Shown here piece after piece: positions 23,395 through 47,505 of a stretch of DNA of 64,000 nucleotides. The translations under genes and the position numbers were made by a program. Below the pieces are notes generated by a model that was given only the letters and a program-made list of their open reading frames with translations, was not told the DNA's origin and ran no database searches. Source of the stretch: Fangia hongkongensis FSC776 = DSM 21703 (GTDB lineage: Bacteria > Pseudomonadota > Gammaproteobacteria > Francisellales > Francisellaceae); NCBI RefSeq assembly GCF_000379445.1, contig NZ_KB902271.1, positions 62,001-126,000 of the forward strand, read 5' to 3'. Within the stretch, counting starts at the first letter, position 1. Each line of letters starts with the position of its first letter.

Positions 23395-23444
23395 ACGCCC
23401 CATAGCGACTTTTGTAATGACAAGACAACTAAGGAACGTCTTCA

Positions 23445-26400
23445 ATGACATCATCAAACCAAAAACGGTTAGCTTCTTTAATTAACTGTTATCGGAACAT
23501 GTATCGCATTCGCGTAATTGATAACACTGAATCTGAGATGGTCAATAGCGGAAAAGCCAACTTTCTTGCCTCATCAGCAGGTCACGAAGGTGCTGCTATT
23601 TTTGCGGAGCATTTCACACAAGAGGACTGGCTACATTGCCACTACCGAGACAAACCACTTATGCACGCTCGTGGCATCAAACCTGTCATGTTCTTTTACA
23701 GCTCTTTATGCAAAGCTGAAGGCGTTTCAAACGGGCGCCAAATGGTTATCGGCATGAGTGAGCGCGCACTGAATATTGTCAGCATCATCACCCCAGTTGG
23801 AAACCAAGCCCTTCCAGCAACAGGTATTGCTCACAGCATCAAAAACGCCCCTTCCAAGCCCATCGTCTATTGTGGAATGGGAGATGGAACAACCCAACAA
23901 GGTGAGGTATTGGAAGCTTTTGCTGAAGCGAAGCGTCATAACTTACCTGTATTATTTGTCATCCAAGATAACAATCAAGCCATCTCAACTCGCACAAAGG
24001 GAAAAACATTTTACTCATTGCCGGATGGATCTGAGCCCACTGAATTCATGGGCATTCCTATCACACATCTAGATGGCACAAAGCCATTTGAAAGTTATGA
24101 TGAAGTGGGTGAGATCATCGATACTATGCGTAAAGACAAAGCCCCACAGATTATTATTTTAAAAACAGTGCGTCTGAACAGCCATTCCAATGCTGATGAT
24201 CATAGAATCTATCGAAGCGCTGATGAGCTTGAGACAATCAAAAAAGAAGACCCTCTAATTCATGCGCGACACTATTTACTAGATCAAGGTGTCGCAGAAT
24301 CTGAACTTAGTGAAATTGAAAAAGCCTGTGAGCAAGAAGTCTCTAAAGCAGCTGAGTTGTCTTTACAAGGCTCTACGCCTGAAGCCTCTTTTGATGCTGA
24401 GAAGCCACTACCTTCACACCTTTTACCAACGGCATCTGAGTACCGTGGAGATTTCTCTGCTGAAACTCGCCTTGGAATGGGTGCTGCCATGCGTGAAGTC
24501 TTCAGACATCGTTTACAAAGTGACGATAAAGTCTATTTATTAGGGGAAGACATTGAAGATGAAAAAGGCGATGTTTTTGGCGTTACTAAAGGCTTATCCA
24601 CACAGTTCCCAGGGCGTGTGGTCAATAGCCCTCTTGCTGAGGCAACCATTGTTGGCGTATGTTCAGGAATGGCATTAACAGGAAAACGCCCTGTCGCCTT
24701 TATCCAGTTTGCCGATTTTATGCCACCAGCTTATAATCAAATTTTCACAGAACTTGCTACAATGCATTGGCGCTCAAATGGCGATTGGGACTGCCCGGTG
24801 ATTGTGTTTGCAGCTTGCGGTGGATATCGCCCAGGACTTGGTCCTTTTCATGCGCAAACTAACGAAGGAACTTATGCGCATATCCCGGGACTTGATGTCT
24901 ATATGCCATCTAATGCTGCTGATGCCGCAGGCATGTTAAATGCGGCATTTGAGTCAAACCGACCAAGTATTTTTCTATACCCTAAAAAGCTTCTTAATAA
25001 TGCAAGTGTTGAAGAGACAACCTCAAGTGATATTGATAAACAGCTTGTGCCTGTTGGAAAGGCAAGAATAGCAAAACCGGGAAGTGATATCACACTTGTC
25101 GGCTGGGGAAATACCGTTTCCTTGTGTCATGAAGTATCAGAGACACTTGAATCTGTCGGCATTGATGCTGAGATTATCGATATGCGCACCATTAAGCCAT
25201 ATGATCTACAAACCGTCCTCTCCTCGGCAGAAAAAACAAAACATCTCATTGTGACTCACGAAGATAATATGACTTGTGGCCTTGGTGGGGATATTATTGC
25301 ATCTGTTGTTGAACATGCAAAAAGCACTATCAAAGCCAAACGCGTCACACGAGCAGACACGTATGTCCCATGCAACTTTGACAATCAAATGGAAGTACTG
25401 CCTTCTTTTGAAAGACTCCTTGGCGCAGCAGCAGATATGCTTGATTTGACCCTTGAGTGGGAAGTAATACAAAACACAGATAGCGGCAGCTATAATGTTG
25501 AAGTCATTGGTGCAAGCCCATCAGATGAAAGTGTTCTCATTACTGATTTATATGTGAATGTTGGCGATACTGTTAAGGTGGGTGATAAGCTTGTCGATTT
25601 AGAGGCAAGTAAGTCAGTTGGTGAGATTCTTTCACCCAGTAATGGTACAGTTGAAGAGATTTACGTTGAAGAGTCAGAACGTGTAACGGTCGGAGATAAT
25701 CTTCTAAAGCTTCGCCTACCTGAAGGCGCAAGCAATGTTCAAAAAGTCAAAAAACGCCCGATTTTGAAACGTAAAGTGCAAAAAGAACAGCTTGATAAAG
25801 CACGTCAAAAAGGCGGGGTATACCCTGTTGGCATTATGACACCAAGCTTTAAAACTGGCTCTAAATGTGTCACCAATGAGATGCTACTTCAGAATTTTCC
25901 AGATCACAGCAGCAGCGATATTATTGATCGAACCGGTATTGAAAAGCGCTATTGGTTAGATGAGAATGAGAATATTTTGGACTTGACAGCAAATGTCGCC
26001 ATCGATGCGCTCAATAAAGCAAATTTAACGCTTGCTGACATTGATCAGGTGATCTGTGCAACGTCTAGCCCTGATCAGTACCTCTCTCCCTCTATGGCAT
26101 GTTTAGTCCTTGAGAAGCTCTATCATAGCTATGGTGAACGAGCAATTCCTGCTTATGATATTAACGCTGCCTGTAGCGGCTATATTTATGCCCTACAGAA
26201 TGCTCGTGATTACCTGCAAACCAGACCAAATAAGCGTGTGCTAGTTATCACCTCTGAGTACATGAGTAAACGCACAGATGTGACTGATTTTGACACTGCA
26301 TTTCTATTTGCCGATGCAGCTACGGCAACGATTGTTAATGGTAATGACCATCAAGATCAAAGCTGTGCTGTAATCGATGAGATTTCACTGACAGCGAATG

Positions 26401-26789
26401 CTGAGAATGGCGATATATTAAGCATTCCAACAAAAGAGGGCGAATATATACGCCTTGAAGGGCAAAAGCTCTTTAGCTTTGCCGTTAAAACCATGTCAAT
26501 GATTATGCATAAATGTTGTCAGCAAAGTAATATTGCGCTTAATAGTGTTGACTTGGTTATCCCACATCAGGCAAATCAAAGAATATCTAATGCAGTTGAA
26601 AGGCGCCTTAAAATGCAAGCGGGTACACTTTATAGCAATATTGCAAATTATGGCAACACCTCTTCTTGCACTATTCCGATTGCCTTAGGAGAAACACTTG
26701 ATGCACAAAAGAAAGATAACACAGTTGCACTTTGCGCATTTGGCTCTGGTTTCACCGCAGCTGCTGCACTATTAACAATGTTGAAATAA
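23445..26789 (+). CDS. fused 2-oxoacid dehydrogenase E1 alpha/beta - lipoyl - KAS III enzyme
   Basis: This 1114-residue chain joins four complete modules. Residues about 1-310 are an E1-alpha domain of the branched-chain type, with the thiamine diphosphate motif G146-D147-G148 ... N176-N177. Residues about 340-670 are E1-beta (GEDIEDEKGDVFGVTKGL, GPFHAQTNEGTYAHIPGLDV). Residues about 684-755 are one lipoyl domain with the acceptor Lys723 in EASKSVGE. Residues about 792-1114 are a FabH-like ketosynthase with triad Cys910, His1041 and Asn1071 (NAACSG, PHQANQRI, NYGNTSS), spaced 131 and 30 residues apart, much as in E. coli FabH. There is no E2 acyltransferase domain. The inferred role is to decarboxylate a 2-oxo acid, load the acyl group on the internal lipoyl arm and prime a fatty-acid or polyketide chain. 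An AAGGA site precedes the ATG. Confidence 0.9.
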   Translation: MTSSNQKRLASLINCYRNMYRIRVIDNTESEMVNSGKANFLASSAGHEGAAIFAEHFTQEDWLHCHYRDKPLMHARGIKPVMFFYSSLCKAEGVSNGRQMVIGMSERALNIVSIITPVGNQALPATGIAHSIKNAPSKPIVYCGMGDGTTQQGEVLEAFAEAKRHNLPVLFVIQDNNQAISTRTKGKTFYSLPDGSEPTEFMGIPITHLDGTKPFESYDEVGEIIDTMRKDKAPQIIILKTVRLNSHSNADDHRIYRSADELETIKKEDPLIHARHYLLDQGVAESELSEIEKACEQEVSKAAELSLQGSTPEASFDAEKPLPSHLLPTASEYRGDFSAETRLGMGAAMREVFRHRLQSDDKVYLLGEDIEDEKGDVFGVTKGLSTQFPGRVVNSPLAEATIVGVCSGMALTGKRPVAFIQFADFMPPAYNQIFTELATMHWRSNGDWDCPVIVFAACGGYRPGLGPFHAQTNEGTYAHIPGLDVYMPSNAADAAGMLNAAFESNRPSIFLYPKKLLNNASVEETTSSDIDKQLVPVGKARIAKPGSDITLVGWGNTVSLCHEVSETLESVGIDAEIIDMRTIKPYDLQTVLSSAEKTKHLIVTHEDNMTCGLGGDIIASVVEHAKSTIKAKRVTRADTYVPCNFDNQMEVLPSFERLLGAAADMLDLTLEWEVIQNTDSGSYNVEVIGASPSDESVLITDLYVNVGDTVKVGDKLVDLEASKSVGEILSPSNGTVEEIYVEESERVTVGDNLLKLRLPEGASNVQKVKKRPILKRKVQKEQLDKARQKGGVYPVGIMTPSFKTGSKCVTNEMLLQNFPDHSSSDIIDRTGIEKRYWLDENENILDLTANVAIDALNKANLTLADIDQVICATSSPDQYLSPSMACLVLEKLYHSYGERAIPAYDINAACSGYIYALQNARDYLQTRPNKRVLVITSEYMSKRTDVTDFDTAFLFADAATATIVNGNDHQDQSCAVIDEISLTANAENGDILSIPTKEGEYIRLEGQKLFSFAVKTMSMIMHKCCQQSNIALNSVDLVIPHQANQRISNAVERRLKMQAGTLYSNIANYGNTSSCTIPIALGETLDAQKKDNTVALCAFGSGFTAAAALLTMLK

Positions 26790-41568: not shown

Positions 41569-42984
41569 CTATTTTTTCTTTTTCGGCGCGTAGATATCTG
41601 TTGCAGTTCCTTCGTATACTTCCGTTGCCATTGCCAGCGTTTCAGATAATGTTGGATGTGGGTGAATCGTCAAAGAGATATCTTCTGCATCACAACCCAT
41701 TTCAATTGCCAAAGAAGCTTCAGCAATAAGCTCTCCGGCATTTGGTCCAACAATTCCAGCACCAATGATCACATGATTCTCATCATACAATACTTTTGTC
41801 ATGCCTTCATTTCTACCAATACTTAACGAGCGACCACTCGCTGCCCAAGGGAAAACACCCTTGTCATATTTAATGCCTTGTTCTTTTGCTTCTTTCTCAG
41901 TTACTCCAACCCATGCAACTTCAGGGTCAGTGTAAGCAACAGATGGAATACATTTAGGTTCAAAATAATGTTTCATACCAGAGATCACCTCAGCAGCAAC
42001 ACGACCCTCTGGTACAGCTTTATGTGCAAGCATTGGCTGACCAATCACATCTCCTATCGCATAAATATGTGGCACATTGGTGCGAAGCTGTTTATCCACA
42101 GATATAAAGCCACGCTCATCGACATTAACACCTGCTTTTTCAGCATCAACCAAGTTACCATTAGGCGCACGTCCAACTGCCAATAAAATGCGATCAAATT
42201 TCTCAGGCTTATCAGTGGCTTTAGCGCCTTCCATAGAGACATAAAGACCATCATCTTTCGCTTCAACTTTGGTCACTTTTGTTTTCAGACGAATATCATA
42301 GCGCTTAGACATCATCTTCTCATATGGCTTAACAATGTCTTTATCTGCAGCACCCATCAGTTGATCTAAAAACTCAACAACCGTAATATCAGAGCCAAGC
42401 TCACTATATACTTGCGCCATCTCAAGACCAATAATACCGCCACCAATAACAAGCATTTTTTTCGGCACTTCTTTCATTTCAAGCGCACCGGTTGAATCAA
42501 TGATCCTTGGATCTTGTGGAATAAATGGTAGCTCTATAGAACGAGAACCTACCGCGATAATTGCATTGTCAAAACCAACTGTTTTAACACCCTCTTTTGT
42601 TTCAACTGCAATTTCATTTGGGGAAGTGAATTTGCCATACCCCTTAACAATTTCAACCTTACGCTGTTTGGCAAGCCCTTTAAGCCCCATCGTCAATTGC
42701 TTAACGATATTGTCCTTATAGCCCAAAATTTTATCTTTATTGTATGCAAAATTATCAAAGCTAATTAAGCCATCCTTTTCTAAATGGCGCGCTTCATTAA
42801 TGACTTTTGCAACATGTAAAAGCGCTTTTGATGGGATACAGCCCACATTCAAACACACCCCTCCAATTGTGTCATACTTTTCAATAAGCACAACCTTCTT
42901 GCCCAAATCTGCCGCACGAAATGCAGCACTATAACCGCCAGGACCACTTCCTAGCACAACAACTTCAGCTTGAATATCACTCAC
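41569..42984 (-). CDS. lpd: dihydrolipoamide dehydrogenase (E3)
   Basis: Lpd re-oxidises dihydrolipoyl groups of 2-oxoacid dehydrogenases and passes electrons to NAD+. The 471-residue flavoprotein has the FAD motif VLGSGPGGYSAAFRAADLG, the redox pair in GGVCLNVGCIPSKALLH, the NAD motif VIGGGIIGLEMAQVYSELG and the catalytic His-x-His-Pro (IHPHPTLSE). There is no N-terminal lipoyl domain. It ends the aceE-aceF-lpd operon, 15 bp after aceF. It could also serve the lipoyl domain of the fusion enzyme at 23445-26789. Confidence 0.96.
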   Translation of the reverse strand: MSDIQAEVVVLGSGPGGYSAAFRAADLGKKVVLIEKYDTIGGVCLNVGCIPSKALLHVAKVINEARHLEKDGLISFDNFAYNKDKILGYKDNIVKQLTMGLKGLAKQRKVEIVKGYGKFTSPNEIAVETKEGVKTVGFDNAIIAVGSRSIELPFIPQDPRIIDSTGALEMKEVPKKMLVIGGGIIGLEMAQVYSELGSDITVVEFLDQLMGAADKDIVKPYEKMMSKRYDIRLKTKVTKVEAKDDGLYVSMEGAKATDKPEKFDRILLAVGRAPNGNLVDAEKAGVNVDERGFISVDKQLRTNVPHIYAIGDVIGQPMLAHKAVPEGRVAAEVISGMKHYFEPKCIPSVAYTDPEVAWVGVTEKEAKEQGIKYDKGVFPWAASGRSLSIGRNEGMTKVLYDENHVIIGAGIVGPNAGELIAEASLAIEMGCDAEDISLTIHPHPTLSETLAMATEVYEGTATDIYAPKKKK

Positions 42985-42999
42985 TTTTAATTCCTCTAT

Positions 43000-44583
43000 T
43001 TATAATAAAATTTCTCTTAAATCGCTCAAAATTGCACAGTATTTTGTTAAAAATTGTGCAGCCAACGCGCCATCAATGACTCTGTGATCAGTTGACAATG
43101 AAAGTGGCAACATTGTTTTTGGCTCAAACTCTTTTCCATTCCACACTGGCTTCACTGCAGCTTTAGAAACGCCCATAATCGCCACCTCTGGCATATTAAT
43201 AATTGGGGTAAATGCTGTTGTACCCAATATGCCTAAGCTTGATATTGTAAAAGTTGCCCCTTGCATATCAGCAGGTTTTAACTTTCCTTCTCTTGCTTTT
43301 TTCACTAAATCCATAATTTCTCGTGAAATCTCAAAAATACCCTTTTGATCTGCATCCTTAATAACAGGAACAACAAGCCCTTTTGGCGTATCAGCAGCAA
43401 AACCAATATTATAATATTTCTTAATAATCAAACTTTCACCATCATTTGATAATGAACTGTTAAAGCGAGGGTAGTGCTGAAGTGCTGACGCTGCGGCTTT
43501 AATTAAAAATGACAGCGGTGTAATTTTCACACCTTGCTTTTCTGCATAGGCTTTTTTTGCTTTTCTAAATGCTTCTAGATCAGTAATATCCGCATCATCA
43601 TAGAAAGTAACATGTGGAATTTTCACCCAGTTACGCGCAAGGTTTTTTGCACTTAGCTTATTAATTCTCGATAAGCTTTCTGTTTCAATTTCACCAAATT
43701 TAGCAAAATCAACCACTGGATCTGGTAACAAATCCAAACCTGCACCTGCGCCCCCAACTTGACCACTTTGCACTTGGGTCACTGCTTTTTTAATATAGGA
43801 CTCACAGTCTTCTTTCGTAATACGCCCTTTTCTACCGCTGGCAGAAACACGCGATAAATCAACACCTAAAATACGCGCCAAACGCCTTACAGCTGGAGAT
43901 GCGTGTGCTTTAGTATTATCTATAACTTGACTCTCTGCTACAGCTACCGGCTGCTCTACTTTAGCCTCTGGCAGTTTTATTTCTTCCACCTTAGGCAGAG
44001 CCTCTTGAGTTGTCATATGAGAAGCATCAGCACCATTAACAGCTAAAGTTAAAACCAAAGAGCCTTGAGAAACCTTATCTCCCACTTTAATTGCAATTGC
44101 TGTCACTTTGCCATCTTTTGGTGATGGAATTTCCATCGATGCTTTATCTGTCTCAAGTGTTGCCAATGAGTCTTCTTCTTTCACCTCATCGCCCACACTT
44201 ACATTGAGCTCAATTACATCTACATCTTTATAATCACCGATATCAGGAACAGTTACCTCATAAGATGCTTGGCTTGTGCTTTTATCCGCACTTATCTCTT
44301 TTGTCTCATCCAAAGGCGCACTATTTGTGCCTTGTGCTTGCTTAGTAGCTGTTTCAACCTGCAAAATCACTGAACCTTCTGAGACTTTATCGCCTTCTTT
44401 AACTAAAATTTCCTTCACAACACCGTCAAATGGTGCAGGAACTTCCATTGATGCTTTATCTGTTTCAAGCGTGATTAATGAATCTTCTTCTTTAACTTCA
44501 TCGCCCACACTTACATTGACTTCAATTACATCAACCTCTTTATAGTCACCAATATCTGGAACTGTTACTTGTTGTAATGCCAT
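43000..44583 (-). CDS. aceF: pyruvate dehydrogenase E2, dihydrolipoyl acetyltransferase
   Basis: AceF forms the core of the pyruvate dehydrogenase complex and transfers acetyl groups to CoA. The 527-residue protein has two lipoyl domains with acceptor lysines at Lys43 and Lys147 (ETDKAS in both), a peripheral subunit-binding domain at about 230-265 (SPAVRRLARILGVDL) and a C-terminal acyltransferase with the active-site His in TDHRVIDGALAAQF. The lipoyl modules are nearly the same in DNA, 312 bp apart. E. coli has three lipoyl domains, so two is a shorter form. It lies between aceE and lpd. Confidence 0.96.
   Translation of the reverse strand: MALQQVTVPDIGDYKEVDVIEVNVSVGDEVKEEDSLITLETDKASMEVPAPFDGVVKEILVKEGDKVSEGSVILQVETATKQAQGTNSAPLDETKEISADKSTSQASYEVTVPDIGDYKDVDVIELNVSVGDEVKEEDSLATLETDKASMEIPSPKDGKVTAIAIKVGDKVSQGSLVLTLAVNGADASHMTTQEALPKVEEIKLPEAKVEQPVAVAESQVIDNTKAHASPAVRRLARILGVDLSRVSASGRKGRITKEDCESYIKKAVTQVQSGQVGGAGAGLDLLPDPVVDFAKFGEIETESLSRINKLSAKNLARNWVKIPHVTFYDDADITDLEAFRKAKKAYAEKQGVKITPLSFLIKAAASALQHYPRFNSSLSNDGESLIIKKYYNIGFAADTPKGLVVPVIKDADQKGIFEISREIMDLVKKAREGKLKPADMQGATFTISSLGILGTTAFTPIINMPEVAIMGVSKAAVKPVWNGKEFEPKTMLPLSLSTDHRVIDGALAAQFLTKYCAILSDLREILL
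44131..44571. repeat. tandem duplication of the lipoyl-domain coding segment in aceF
   Basis: The segment from about 44131 to 44252 is repeated at about 44443 to 44564, an offset of 312 bp (104 codons). Most bases are identical, including several silent positions, so the two copies are recent or kept alike by gene conversion. Confidence 0.8.
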
Positions 44584-44605: not shown

Positions 44606-47287
44606 TTAATGGTAGGCCGGATCAGTGCGATCGCTGTCAATATTGTACTGTTTCGCTGCTTTACTCAACACTGATTTAGTAATAACCCCTTCTTTGAAAA
44701 GTGCACTTAATGCCGCAAATGCAACATAGTAGCGATCTACCTCAAAGAAACGGCGAAGGTTCTCTCTTGAGTCTGATCTGCCATAACCGTCTGTCCCAAG
44801 GGTTACATAATTCTCTGGCATAAACTCACGCAACTGCTCAGTATATAACTTAATATAATCCGTAGAGACAACCACAGGACCTGTATGACCTTTTAGACAT
44901 TTTTCGATATGCGTCACTTTTGCTTTTTTCTCAGGGTTCAACAGGTTCCAGCGCGCAACTTTTCGACCATCGCGATAAAGCTCATTGGCACTTGTCATGC
45001 TCCAAATATCACTGGTAACGCCAAAGTCTTTTTCAAGCATTTCACTTGCAGCTTCAACCTCACGCAAAATAGTTCCTGAGCCCATTAGCTGTACATGTTT
45101 TTTCGCATCCGGCTTTTTCGCGCCTTTCAGCAAATAAAGGCCTTTAATAATATCTTCTTCAACCCCTTTTGGCATTGCACCATGAGCATAGTTCTCATTC
45201 ATTAATGTAATATAATAAAAGACCTGCTCTCCTTCAACATACATCCGTCTCATTCCATCCCAAAGAATAACACCTAGCTCATAGGCATAGGTTGGGTCAT
45301 AAGAGATACAAGATGGAATTAACCCTGCCTGAATATGACTATGACCATCTTCATGCTGCAAGCCTTCACCATTTAGAGTTGTACGACCTGCTGTACCACC
45401 TAGCAAGAAGCCTTTTGCATGAGAGTCACCTGCAGCCCAAGCCAGATCGCCAATTCGTTGAAAACCAAACATTGAATAGTAGATATAAAAAGGAATCATT
45501 GGCACACGATGCACGCTATAGGAAGTTGCTGCTGCAAGCCATGAGCAAAATCCACCTGCCTCATTAATCCCATCTTGGATAATCTGCCCATCTTTAGATT
45601 CTTTATAGTACATCACTTGCTTTTTATCTTCAGGGATATACTGCTGACCACGATGATTGTAGATTCCAAGCTGACGGAATAAGCCTTCCATTCCGAAAGT
45701 GCGTGACTCATCAACTGTCACAGGCACCAAACGATCTTTTAGCTCTTTATGACGCGTTAAATTAACAAACATTCTAACAAAGGCTGTTGTGGTAGAGAAT
45801 TCCCTCTCACCACTTGACTCTAAAAATGCTTTAGCAAAATCAGTATAACTTGGAATTGGCAAAGCTTCATTGTTTTCAAAGCGCGCAGGAGCATAACCAC
45901 CTAGATCTTGGCGTTTTTGATGTAGATAGCTATCTTCTTTTGAGCCTTCTTCAAAACGAATCAGCTTCATTTCTTCCACTTCTTGATCCGTTGCTGGCAC
46001 ATCAAAACGATCGCGAATATACGTTAAGGCTTCGGTGTTTAACTTCTTGACATTATGCGCGATGTTTTTAGATTCGCCCCACTCACCAAGACCATAACCT
46101 TTCACTGTCAAAGGCAATATCAATGTTGGCTTACCAGTATCATTGTTTGTTGCTCTTTGATAAGCTGCATAAACTTTAATCGGATCATGACCACCTCTTA
46201 ATAAATTTTGCACATCTTCATCTGAAAAGCCACTTCCAAGTGCTTCAAGTTCAGGGTCGCCGCCAAAAATTGTCTGGCGTAAATCATTACCACCATGAGA
46301 GCGTGCAAACTGCATTTGCCCATCATTCATTTCAGCCAGACGTTTTTGTAACTTGCCATTTATATCTTTTGCGAATAGTGGCTCCCAGTTACTTCCCCAA
46401 AGCACTTTAATGACATTCCATCCAGCACCTTCAAACATAGCTGCAAATTCTTCAACAATCTTACCATTACCATCAACCAAACCATCTAAACGCTGTAAGT
46501 TACAGTTAATGACAAAAATTAAATTGTCTAAACCTTCTCTTGCAGCACGGTTAATGGCGCCCAAAGACTCAGGTTCATCCATCTCGCCATCACCACAAAA
46601 TGCCCAAACCTTGCGCTTGGAAGTATCTGCAAGTTTGCGCGCTTCAAGGTATTTCATAAAGCGTGCTTGATAGATCGCCTGTAATGGTCCAAGTCCCATT
46701 GAAACCGTTGGAAACTGCCAGTAATTTGGTTGCAAATAAGGGTGCGGATAAGAGGATAAGCCTTTCTCACCATTAAATGCTTGTTGTCTGAAATTAGTTA
46801 GCTGCTCTTCTGTCAGTCTACCTTCGAGATAAGAACGTGCATATATGACAGGTGTCGTATGACCTTGATAAAAAACCAAATCTCCAGCTTCTTGATTATT
46901 TGGCGCATTGAAAAAATGGTTAAAACCCACTTCATAAAGTGTCATGATCGAGGCACCAGAGCCAATATGTCCACCTAAAGAGCCATCTTTTTTATTGGCC
47001 TTTGCCACCATTACGGCAGCATTCCAACGATTTAGGTTTTCTATTTTCTTTTCAATTTCTAAATCACCAGGATATGCCGGCTGATCAGACGGTAAAATTG
47101 TATTCATAAAACGCACAGCCTTTGGCGCACCATAAGCACTCTCAAGACCAACTTTTCCTGCTTGGTCAAATAACTTTGTTAGCAAGAACTCCGCACGCTC
47201 TTTGCCTTCACGCTCCACTACATCCTCAAAGGCTTCCAGCCACTCTTGAGTTTCTGTAGTATCAATATCCTGAAGATACTTTGACAT
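44606..47287 (-). CDS. aceE: pyruvate dehydrogenase E1 component (homodimeric)
   Basis: AceE decarboxylates pyruvate on thiamine diphosphate and loads acetyl groups on AceF. The 893-residue protein has the homodimeric E1 layout, with HIGSGASIMTLYEVGFNHFF, the cofactor motif FCGDGEMDEPESLGAI ... NCNLQRLDG and the C-terminal transketolase part. I chose the ATG at 47287 (MSKYLQDIDT), with GGAGG 5 nt upstream; the in-frame opening at 47299 overlaps that site. A TATAAT at 47331-47336 on the same strand is a likely -10 box, with no clear -35. No PdhR-like regulator gene adjoins the operon. Confidence 0.96.
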   Translation of the reverse strand: MSKYLQDIDTTETQEWLEAFEDVVEREGKERAEFLLTKLFDQAGKVGLESAYGAPKAVRFMNTILPSDQPAYPGDLEIEKKIENLNRWNAAVMVAKANKKDGSLGGHIGSGASIMTLYEVGFNHFFNAPNNQEAGDLVFYQGHTTPVIYARSYLEGRLTEEQLTNFRQQAFNGEKGLSSYPHPYLQPNYWQFPTVSMGLGPLQAIYQARFMKYLEARKLADTSKRKVWAFCGDGEMDEPESLGAINRAAREGLDNLIFVINCNLQRLDGLVDGNGKIVEEFAAMFEGAGWNVIKVLWGSNWEPLFAKDINGKLQKRLAEMNDGQMQFARSHGGNDLRQTIFGGDPELEALGSGFSDEDVQNLLRGGHDPIKVYAAYQRATNNDTGKPTLILPLTVKGYGLGEWGESKNIAHNVKKLNTEALTYIRDRFDVPATDQEVEEMKLIRFEEGSKEDSYLHQKRQDLGGYAPARFENNEALPIPSYTDFAKAFLESSGEREFSTTTAFVRMFVNLTRHKELKDRLVPVTVDESRTFGMEGLFRQLGIYNHRGQQYIPEDKKQVMYYKESKDGQIIQDGINEAGGFCSWLAAATSYSVHRVPMIPFYIYYSMFGFQRIGDLAWAAGDSHAKGFLLGGTAGRTTLNGEGLQHEDGHSHIQAGLIPSCISYDPTYAYELGVILWDGMRRMYVEGEQVFYYITLMNENYAHGAMPKGVEEDIIKGLYLLKGAKKPDAKKHVQLMGSGTILREVEAASEMLEKDFGVTSDIWSMTSANELYRDGRKVARWNLLNPEKKAKVTHIEKCLKGHTGPVVVSTDYIKLYTEQLREFMPENYVTLGTDGYGRSDSRENLRRFFEVDRYYVAFAALSALFKEGVITKSVLSKAAKQYNIDSDRTDPAYH

Positions 47288-47505
47288 TATCGCCTCCAAT
47301 TGACGCTACTTTTGAAATAAAAACGGCTTAATTATAAACACAGAAGCTTGGAAAATACAGTACACTAGCAGCATTTTAGTTTAGAGTATCGATTAACAGC
47401 TATTTATAATGGCTGTTTTGCTTCTCGCTTCTTGAACAGATTTACTTTTTTGGTAAATTAAGCTATTTTCTGTTGCTATCGATAAAATTTAAAAACACTC
47501 TATCT

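Follow-up and report, generated by a model that had tools for sequence, protein, structure and literature searches.

A single-chain E1-lipoyl-ketosynthase III fusion in Fangia hongkongensis, a probable E2-less fatty acid starter synthase

Introduction

The passage from 2-oxo acids to fatty acid primers has been described for systems of separate proteins. In the classical route, as in Bacillus, the branched-chain 2-oxo acid dehydrogenase complex (BCKDH; E1, E2 and E3) and the condensing enzyme FabH lead from a 2-oxo acid through a primer to 3-ketoacyl-acyl carrier protein (3-ketoacyl-ACP), and this route has been set up in Escherichia coli with the bkd operon and fabH, according to the cited parts of that work (PMC6461809). 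In Photorhabdus, the published passages on BkdABC say that it forms a 5-methyl-3-oxohexanoyl thioester, that E. coli expressing bkdABC makes branched fatty acids, and that a bkdABC mutant is without iso-fatty acids (PMC4578411, PMC4901931, PMC3838401, PMC8248439). Here we analyze a gene of Fangia hongkongensis FSC776 = DSM 21703 that lies in a stretch of 64,000 nucleotides (GCF_000379445.1, contig NZ_KB902271.1, positions 62,001 to 126,000; hereafter the window) and encodes E1 alpha, E1 beta, a lipoyl-type domain and a ketoacyl-ACP synthase III (KAS III) in one chain. We suggest that this fusion is, with fair likelihood, a single-chain fatty acid starter synthase that dispenses with E2 and probably with coenzyme A (CoA), and that its favored substrate is a branched-chain 2-oxo acid.

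Results

The preliminary description of the gene, made from the letters of the window, had read four modules in one intact frame of 1114 residues, together with a thiamine motif, an acceptor Lys723 and a Cys910-His1041-Asn1071 triad. Pfam finds the modules in the order E1 alpha, E1 beta, lipoyl-type and KAS III, and the residues lie where they had been placed (Table 1). Lys723, Cys910, His1041 and Asn1071 are invariant across a 25-row alignment of the family, and the same 25 rows are invariant at five E1 residues, namely Asp147 and Asn176 of the thiamine diphosphate (ThDP) motif and Glu399, His247 and His469, whose E1 role we assume by analogy with human BCKDH. The matches to PF00676, PF02779 and PF02780 and these invariant motif residues together identify a ThDP-dependent E1 of the alpha/beta type. 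The C-terminal part has the KAS III fold and a Cys-His-Asn active site: it matches ACP_syn_III (residues 904-970, 3e-20) and ACP_syn_III_C (residues 1025-1111, 8.5e-23), and it reaches 264 bits with the KAS 3 model NF006829 (cut-off 249) and 230 bits with the fabH model TIGR00747 (cut-off 292).

The carrier module had been called lipoyl in the preliminary description. The domain and its Lys723 are present, but PF00364 alone does not separate lipoyl from biotinyl domains, and because the model spans both kinds the call is weaker than the description put it; the PDB relatives of the domain likewise comprise both E2 lipoyl and biotinyl domains. Biotin carriers have an M-K-M motif. The context of Lys723 is E-A-S-K-S in the fusion and E-A-D-K-A in the homologues L050, L096 and L117, and these contexts, together with the position after E1, point to a carrier of the lipoyl type, with Lys723 as the predicted site of lipoylation. 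In a structure model of the fusion (mean predicted local distance difference test score, pLDDT, 80; predicted template modeling score, pTM, 0.62), domains match FabH folds and E1 beta folds; among the latter, pyruvate dehydrogenase (PDH) beta chains match best, followed closely by branched-chain ones. The segments that flank the lipoyl domain, at residues ~671-700 and ~761-790, are modeled with lower confidence, which is consistent with flexible links; the domain arrangement in the model is too uncertain to gauge the reach from Lys723 to Cys910.

A chain of this kind was claimed to lack an E2 acyltransferase, and indeed the fusion contains neither a PF00198 (E2) domain nor a PP-binding (ACP) domain by Pfam. 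The host genome (2.95 Mb, 37 contigs, 100% complete) has two PF00198 domains, in SucB, which adjoins SucA, and in AceF, which adjoins AceE within the window; as both E2s adjoin the E1 genes of PDH and oxoglutarate dehydrogenase (OGDH), the PF00198 scan leaves no unassigned E2 in the genome. The corresponding PF00676 scan returned SucA, the fusion and one weak match in a 626-residue frame that also gave a weak E1 beta-like match, and the fusion is thus the only alpha/beta-type E1 found in the host. Across the host's family, two E2s are present in 12 of 13 carriers of the fusion (the remaining genome, 84% complete, has one) and in 12 of 12 non-carriers, and this equal number indicates that the fusion brings no E2 with it. 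A contrasting genome, G028, has two separate E1 alpha/beta pairs with an E2 near each. One or two E2 matches were also counted in 16 of 17 genome entries that have the fusion or a relative without KAS III, a set in which several entries repeat family genomes and E2s were counted without assignment to E1 partners.

The kinship of the E1 part offers a second line of evidence. Within the Planctomycetota sample, the nearest relatives without KAS III come from five genomes (L097-L101), in which an E1 alpha/beta part 40-42% identical to that of the fusion continues into a different C-terminal part. Pfam found lipoyl and 2-oxoacid_dh (E2) domains C-terminally in three of these five (L097, L098 and L100), L099 has the same C-terminal letters as the E2-bearing chains, and in L101 the E2 part lies in a different frame from the E1 part. 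Another planctomycete locus, L102, has a stand-alone E1 alpha/beta next to a separate gene whose letters read as lipoyl-E2. When 47 E1 parts were placed in a maximum-likelihood tree, the clade of KAS-bearing chains (30 KAS rows and 2 without KAS) joined the five E2 rows with support of 97/96, the tree being rooted at its midpoint and the join lying between long branches, as the program warned. The simplest reading would be an exchange between E2 and KAS III, in either direction, on a common E1-lipoyl chassis. To our knowledge, a single-chain E1 alpha-E1 beta-lipoyl-E2 design has not appeared in the literature, although no literature search was aimed at it.

The third line of evidence concerns the residues by which FabH holds CoA. 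We aligned 31 fused KAS III domains (loci L035-L043, which repeat genomes with identical scores, were left out) with 15 standalone FabH controls, consisting of E. coli FabH and 14 proteins from genomes with the fusion or a KAS-less relative. The position of E. coli Trp32 holds Asp in 30 and Glu in one of the fused copies, as opposed to Trp in 15/15 controls, of which the 14 are the best of 23 standalone KAS III matches with nine weaker ones left out. With six further fused copies (five Asp, and one Gly in an insertion), Trp32 is absent in 37/37, although these counts are not independent events because many rows are close relatives. Position 151, where Arg is presumably a CoA contact and the partner of Trp32, holds Phe in 35 and Pro in 2 of the 37 (30 and 1 of the 31, 5 and 1 of the six), and 12 Arg, 2 Lys and 1 Thr in the controls. 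The positions of Cys112, His244, Arg249 and Asn274 are retained in 37/37. In this alignment, the host's own FabH appears twice (ownFabH and S_L088) and was counted once, and S_L081 is a partial frame of 256 residues. As to individual copies, the two in which Pro fills the Arg151 position, L117 (G951) and L049 (G142), have Gly or Glu in place of Trp32, and L049 additionally is without the Phe213 and Asn247 residues.

Trp32, Arg36, Phe212 and Asn246 are named as CoA contacts, and Arg36 and Arg248 as likely ACP contacts, apparently in Haemophilus numbering, in the part of the structural literature cited here (PMC9040583). The pattern in the fused copies suggests that the outer contacts on the adenine side have been lost and that those nearer the active site, which any thiol arm could use, have been retained; it argues for, but does not prove, a loss of CoA use.

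Several observations weigh against this interpretation. The Arg36, Phe213 and Asn247 positions are retained in 28, 30 and 30 of the 31 fused copies, and all three residues (E. coli numbering) are present in the window copy, so that only part of the CoA site is changed, although a phosphopantetheine or lipoyl arm of any kind may make use of the retained residues. FabH Lys214 is retained in 0/37 fused copies; position 87, with Ser or Thr in 30/31 fused copies, is not decisive because 3/15 controls also have Thr there; and the selection of the controls, as given above, has to be borne in mind. The motif around Lys723 in the window protein is S-K-S rather than D-K-A. As for the E2 inventory, an additional E1 alpha/beta pair (C1:131442-133391) lies in genome G010, where only two E2s are present, which means that an E1 can stand unmatched without being fused, and G402 (9.3 Mb) has six PF00198 matches, two of them pieces in one frame. 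One rival reading is that an ordinary dehydrogenase and an ordinary CoA-using KAS III merely share a chain, with AceF or SucB making the acyl-CoA in trans. Two E2s are there to do so, the retained CoA contacts would be in place, and fusion need not imply channeling. However, each of the two E2s has an E1 of its own, and the loss of Trp32 sets all fused copies apart from all controls; we regard such an arrangement as quite unlikely.

The slot of E2 in the sister chain is occupied by KAS III, and this raises another idea, namely that the KAS III part is itself a substitute for E2 that only transfers acyl groups, from lipoyl to Cys and on to ACP or CoA, in the manner of CerJ and ChlB3. The altered Trp32 and Arg151 positions would also agree with it. 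In ChlB3 and CerJ, however, Cys and His are paired with Asp, as described in parts of the cited work (PMC9573744), whereas 37/37 fused copies keep both the Asn of FabH and the Arg at position 249. Because the catalytic Asn is retained, a pure acyltransferase is disfavored, and we hold it to be quite improbable.

What the E1 part decarboxylates can be approached through its solved relatives. E1 alpha is closest to the Thermus branched-chain enzyme 1um9_A (128 bits, 3.1e-36), followed by human BCKDH (96 bits) and Bacillus-type PDH (85 bits), and E1 beta matches Pseudomonas BCKDH (187 bits), Thermus branched-chain E1 (183 bits) and Bacillus-type PDH (169 bits). The host genome also encodes a class IV aminotransferase of 317 residues, which may be IlvE, and a fused one of 620 residues. 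A branched-chain 2-oxo acid is likely and is the substrate that we favor, from which iso/anteiso priming would follow. Among the points on the other side, the E1 alpha of the Pseudomonas branched-chain enzyme reaches only 47 bits, less than Bacillus-type PDH; the top solved match of E1 beta, 1ik6 (193 bits), is labeled pyruvate dehydrogenase; the best NCBIfam model for E1 alpha is a PDH model, matched at 185 bits (cut-off 411); and a literature search yielded no useful fatty acid data for the host or its kin. The 1ik6 and NCBIfam matches would suit a variant of the same direct mechanism, differing in substrate only, in which pyruvate or 2-oxobutyrate leads to straight or odd chains. The nearness of E1 alpha to the Thermus and human branched-chain enzymes speaks against that variant, and its acetyl version would be redundant because PDH and a standard FabH are already encoded in the genome; we consider it unlikely, though well worth keeping in mind.

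The fusion is not confined to one assembly. Its closest named homologues, in Facilibium subflavum and Cysteiniphilum species, are 74-76% identical over the full length, followed by those of Thiotrichales isolates and of Neisseriaceae and Burkholderiales bins (58-63%) and then by those of Planctomycetota (46-49%). Overall, the same design is found at identities of 46-76% among Fastidiosibacteraceae, the Neisseriaceae and Burkholderiales bins and Planctomycetota. Of 29 homologous loci, 26 hold it in full length, two (L013 and L031) are truncated at a contig end and one (L034) is a distant E1 only. Of 25 genomes from the host's family, 13 have the fusion (its own and 12 others, in one of which, G006, it is cut by a contig end), and nine of the 12 others are, judging by identical scores, the same genomes as among the 29 loci; the 12 without it are all 12 genomes of a single genus (g5), presumably Francisella. 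Outside the family the fusion is rare in our samples: KAS-bearing copies occur in three of the 369 genomes sampled from the class, a count that takes in the host and one copy truncated at a contig end, with one more lacking KAS, in 2/398 of the phylum (own included), in 6/200 of the order of the Neisseriaceae-labeled bin (centre included; two already counted elsewhere) and in 2/199 of Planctomycetota (centre included), figures that are not prevalences because thresholds differed between samples. Among 390 genomes of another gammaproteobacterial order, an E1-lipoyl query without KAS exceeded 40% identity in none of the matches listed, and among 532 plasmid records with a match none covers 80% of the protein.

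KAS-less relatives were seen at two loci. L048:1474-3819 (G344) is a homologue that has the E1 and lipoyl parts but no KAS III; its genome gives two E2 matches and a single KAS III match, which has Trp32. L060:5173-11879 (G010) holds a full fusion and a KAS-less copy of 793 residues, arranged in tandem and separated by a gene of the DJ-1/PfpI family.

The preliminary description had allowed for an assembly error joining two genes. That the KAS part is missing in G344 and in one of the two G010 copies indicates that loss occurs elsewhere. Full-length homologues in many assemblies from two phyla nevertheless rule out an assembly join, a pseudogene or chance, as does the excess of synonymous over nonsynonymous divergence (dS > dN) in 6/10 region comparisons (for example, dN 0.10 against dS 1.99 in E1 beta, dS being near saturation), with dS not estimable in the other four. 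We regard an assembly error or a decaying pseudogene as practically negligible.

Around the gene, topA follows the fusion not only in the window but also in Facilibium (L007) and at three Cysteiniphilum loci, and a wrbA homologue lies 5' of it in the window and in Facilibium. The search for domain order and gene neighborhood suggested earlier thus had a split outcome: the design recurs in other lineages, but no neighbor common to distant lineages was seen among the rows listed for the 22 loci compared, and a conserved operon was rejected on that ground. Counts of promoter-like sites (15 against 11.1 expected, standard deviation 3.3) and terminator-like sites (5 against 3.7, standard deviation 2.4) were uninformative. 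In five of eight planctomycete loci compared (L018, L022, L027, L030 and L032), a gene for a bacterial microcompartment (BMC) shell protein stands directly downstream of the fusion; that of L018 (L018:11310-11936) matches Pfam BMC in two stretches, and the other four were called by homology to it.

Table 1. The fusion gene and related features, in positions of the window
Feature	Positions	Strand	Basis
Whole gene, E1 alpha-E1 beta-lipoyl-KAS III	23445..26789	+	intact ATG frame, 1114 aa; full-length homologues
Shine-Dalgarno-like AAGGA upstream of ATG	23431..23435	+	sequence inspection
E1 alpha domain, aa 17-308, ThDP motif Asp147...Asn176	23493..24368	+	PF00676 E1_dh 3.5e-44
E1 beta domains: Transket_pyr aa 345-518 (4.3e-28), Transketolase_C aa 538-648 (4.1e-29)	24477..25388	+	Pfam PF02779, PF02780
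Lipoyl-type domain, aa 695-756	25527..25712	+	PF00364 Biotin_lipoyl 2.2e-12
Lys723, predicted lipoyl attachment	25611..25613	+	invariant, 25-row alignment
KAS III domain, aa ~795-1112	25827..26780	+	NF006829 1.7e-78 over 804-1112
Asp825, aligned with E. coli FabH Trp32	25917..25919	+	alignment with FabH
Cys910, predicted acyl-accepting cysteine	26172..26174	+	alignment
Phe949, aligned with E. coli FabH Arg151	26289..26291	+	alignment
His1041	26565..26567	+	alignment
Asn1071, FabH Asn retained	26655..26657	+	alignment
Dihydrolipoyl dehydrogenase Lpd (E3)	41569..42984	-	TIGR01350 499 bits, cut-off 408.8
AceF, E2 of pyruvate dehydrogenase	43000..44583	-	PF00198; next to AceE
AceE, homodimeric E1 of pyruvate dehydrogenase	44606..47299	-	TIGR00759 1330 bits

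Discussion

The preliminary description proposed that the acylated lipoyl arm hands its acyl group straight to the ketosynthase, and this proposal gains support from the lack of an unassigned E2, from the E2 in the corresponding slot of the sister chain and from the loss of Trp32 relative to the controls. We infer the following path from sequence comparison. The E1 alpha/beta part would decarboxylate a 2-oxo acid on ThDP and reductively acylate the lipoyl group on Lys723; Cys910 in the KAS III part would then take over the acyl group from the acyl-dihydrolipoyl thioester presented by the arm, with no E2-catalyzed transfer to CoA; and KAS III would condense the acyl group with malonyl-ACP to a 3-ketoacyl-ACP that enters fatty acid synthesis. 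The arm would finally be reoxidised by Lpd, common to the pyruvate and oxoglutarate complexes, whose gene lies beside aceF and aceE and which is the likely shared reoxidant.

On balance, we incline to the view that such fusions form an undescribed class of 2-oxo acid dehydrogenases, with members among gamma- and betaproteobacteria as well as Planctomycetota, in which a ketosynthase stands in the place of E2 and the acyl group would pass from thiamine to lipoyl to Cys with no acyl-CoA. The fusion would be a variation on known kinds of enzyme, possibly with a new reaction path. If the idea holds, a single gene would provide a CoA-independent route from keto acids derived from amino acids to fatty acid primers, and nature would offer a case in which E2 has given way to a condensing enzyme that works with the same lipoyl arm. 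One gene could then suffice to test the making of branched fatty acids in E. coli, and the absence of FabH Trp32, usually with Asp in its stead, could serve as a sequence signature of a KAS III fed by a tethered carrier.

The preliminary description knew of no enzyme with exactly this design. No account of an E1-lipoyl-KAS III protein was found in the literature searched either, which is weak evidence of absence as that literature was largely without subscription papers, but a system of separate proteins, BkdABC, comes close to it in function. Transfer from a lipoyl group to a carrier is also reported in tetrahydroisoquinoline pathways (QncN/QncL).

The known systems resemble the fusion in different respects. 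With E. coli-type FabH it shares the fold, Cys-His-Asn and Arg249, and it differs in the Trp32 and Arg151 positions, which are changed in every fused copy. The overall chemistry of the classical BCKDH and FabH route would be the same, but that route passes through E2 and free acyl-CoA, while no dedicated E2 was found for the fusion and its KAS III is without Trp32. The Planctomycetota E1 alpha-E1 beta-lipoyl-E2 chains, 40-42% identical in the E1 part, keep the same order through the lipoyl domain and then have an E2 acyltransferase where the fusion has KAS III.

Another arrangement was observed on two Streptomyces plasmids (L115:6930-16942 and L116:6951-16942), where an E1 gene, with alpha and beta fused by Pfam in L116, directly precedes a megasynthase that begins with lipoyl, E2 catalytic and ketosynthase (KS) domains and also contains PP-binding domains. 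This is apparently an in-line loading module for a 2-oxo acid. These assembly lines resemble the fusion in that a condensing enzyme seems to receive its load in cis from a 2-oxo acid dehydrogenase module; they differ in keeping the E2 domain, in consisting of two proteins, and in having a type I KS and carrier domains.

The nearest described system is Photorhabdus BkdABC, which, compared through parts of its published descriptions, is a close functional analogue. Decarboxylation and condensation would take place within one complex there as well, so that the logic is the same in separate proteins; BkdABC, however, is encoded by three genes, and its BkdB is or carries an ACP that needs a phosphopantetheinyl transferase, whereas the fusion is a single polypeptide that carries a lipoyl-type domain and lacks an ACP domain.

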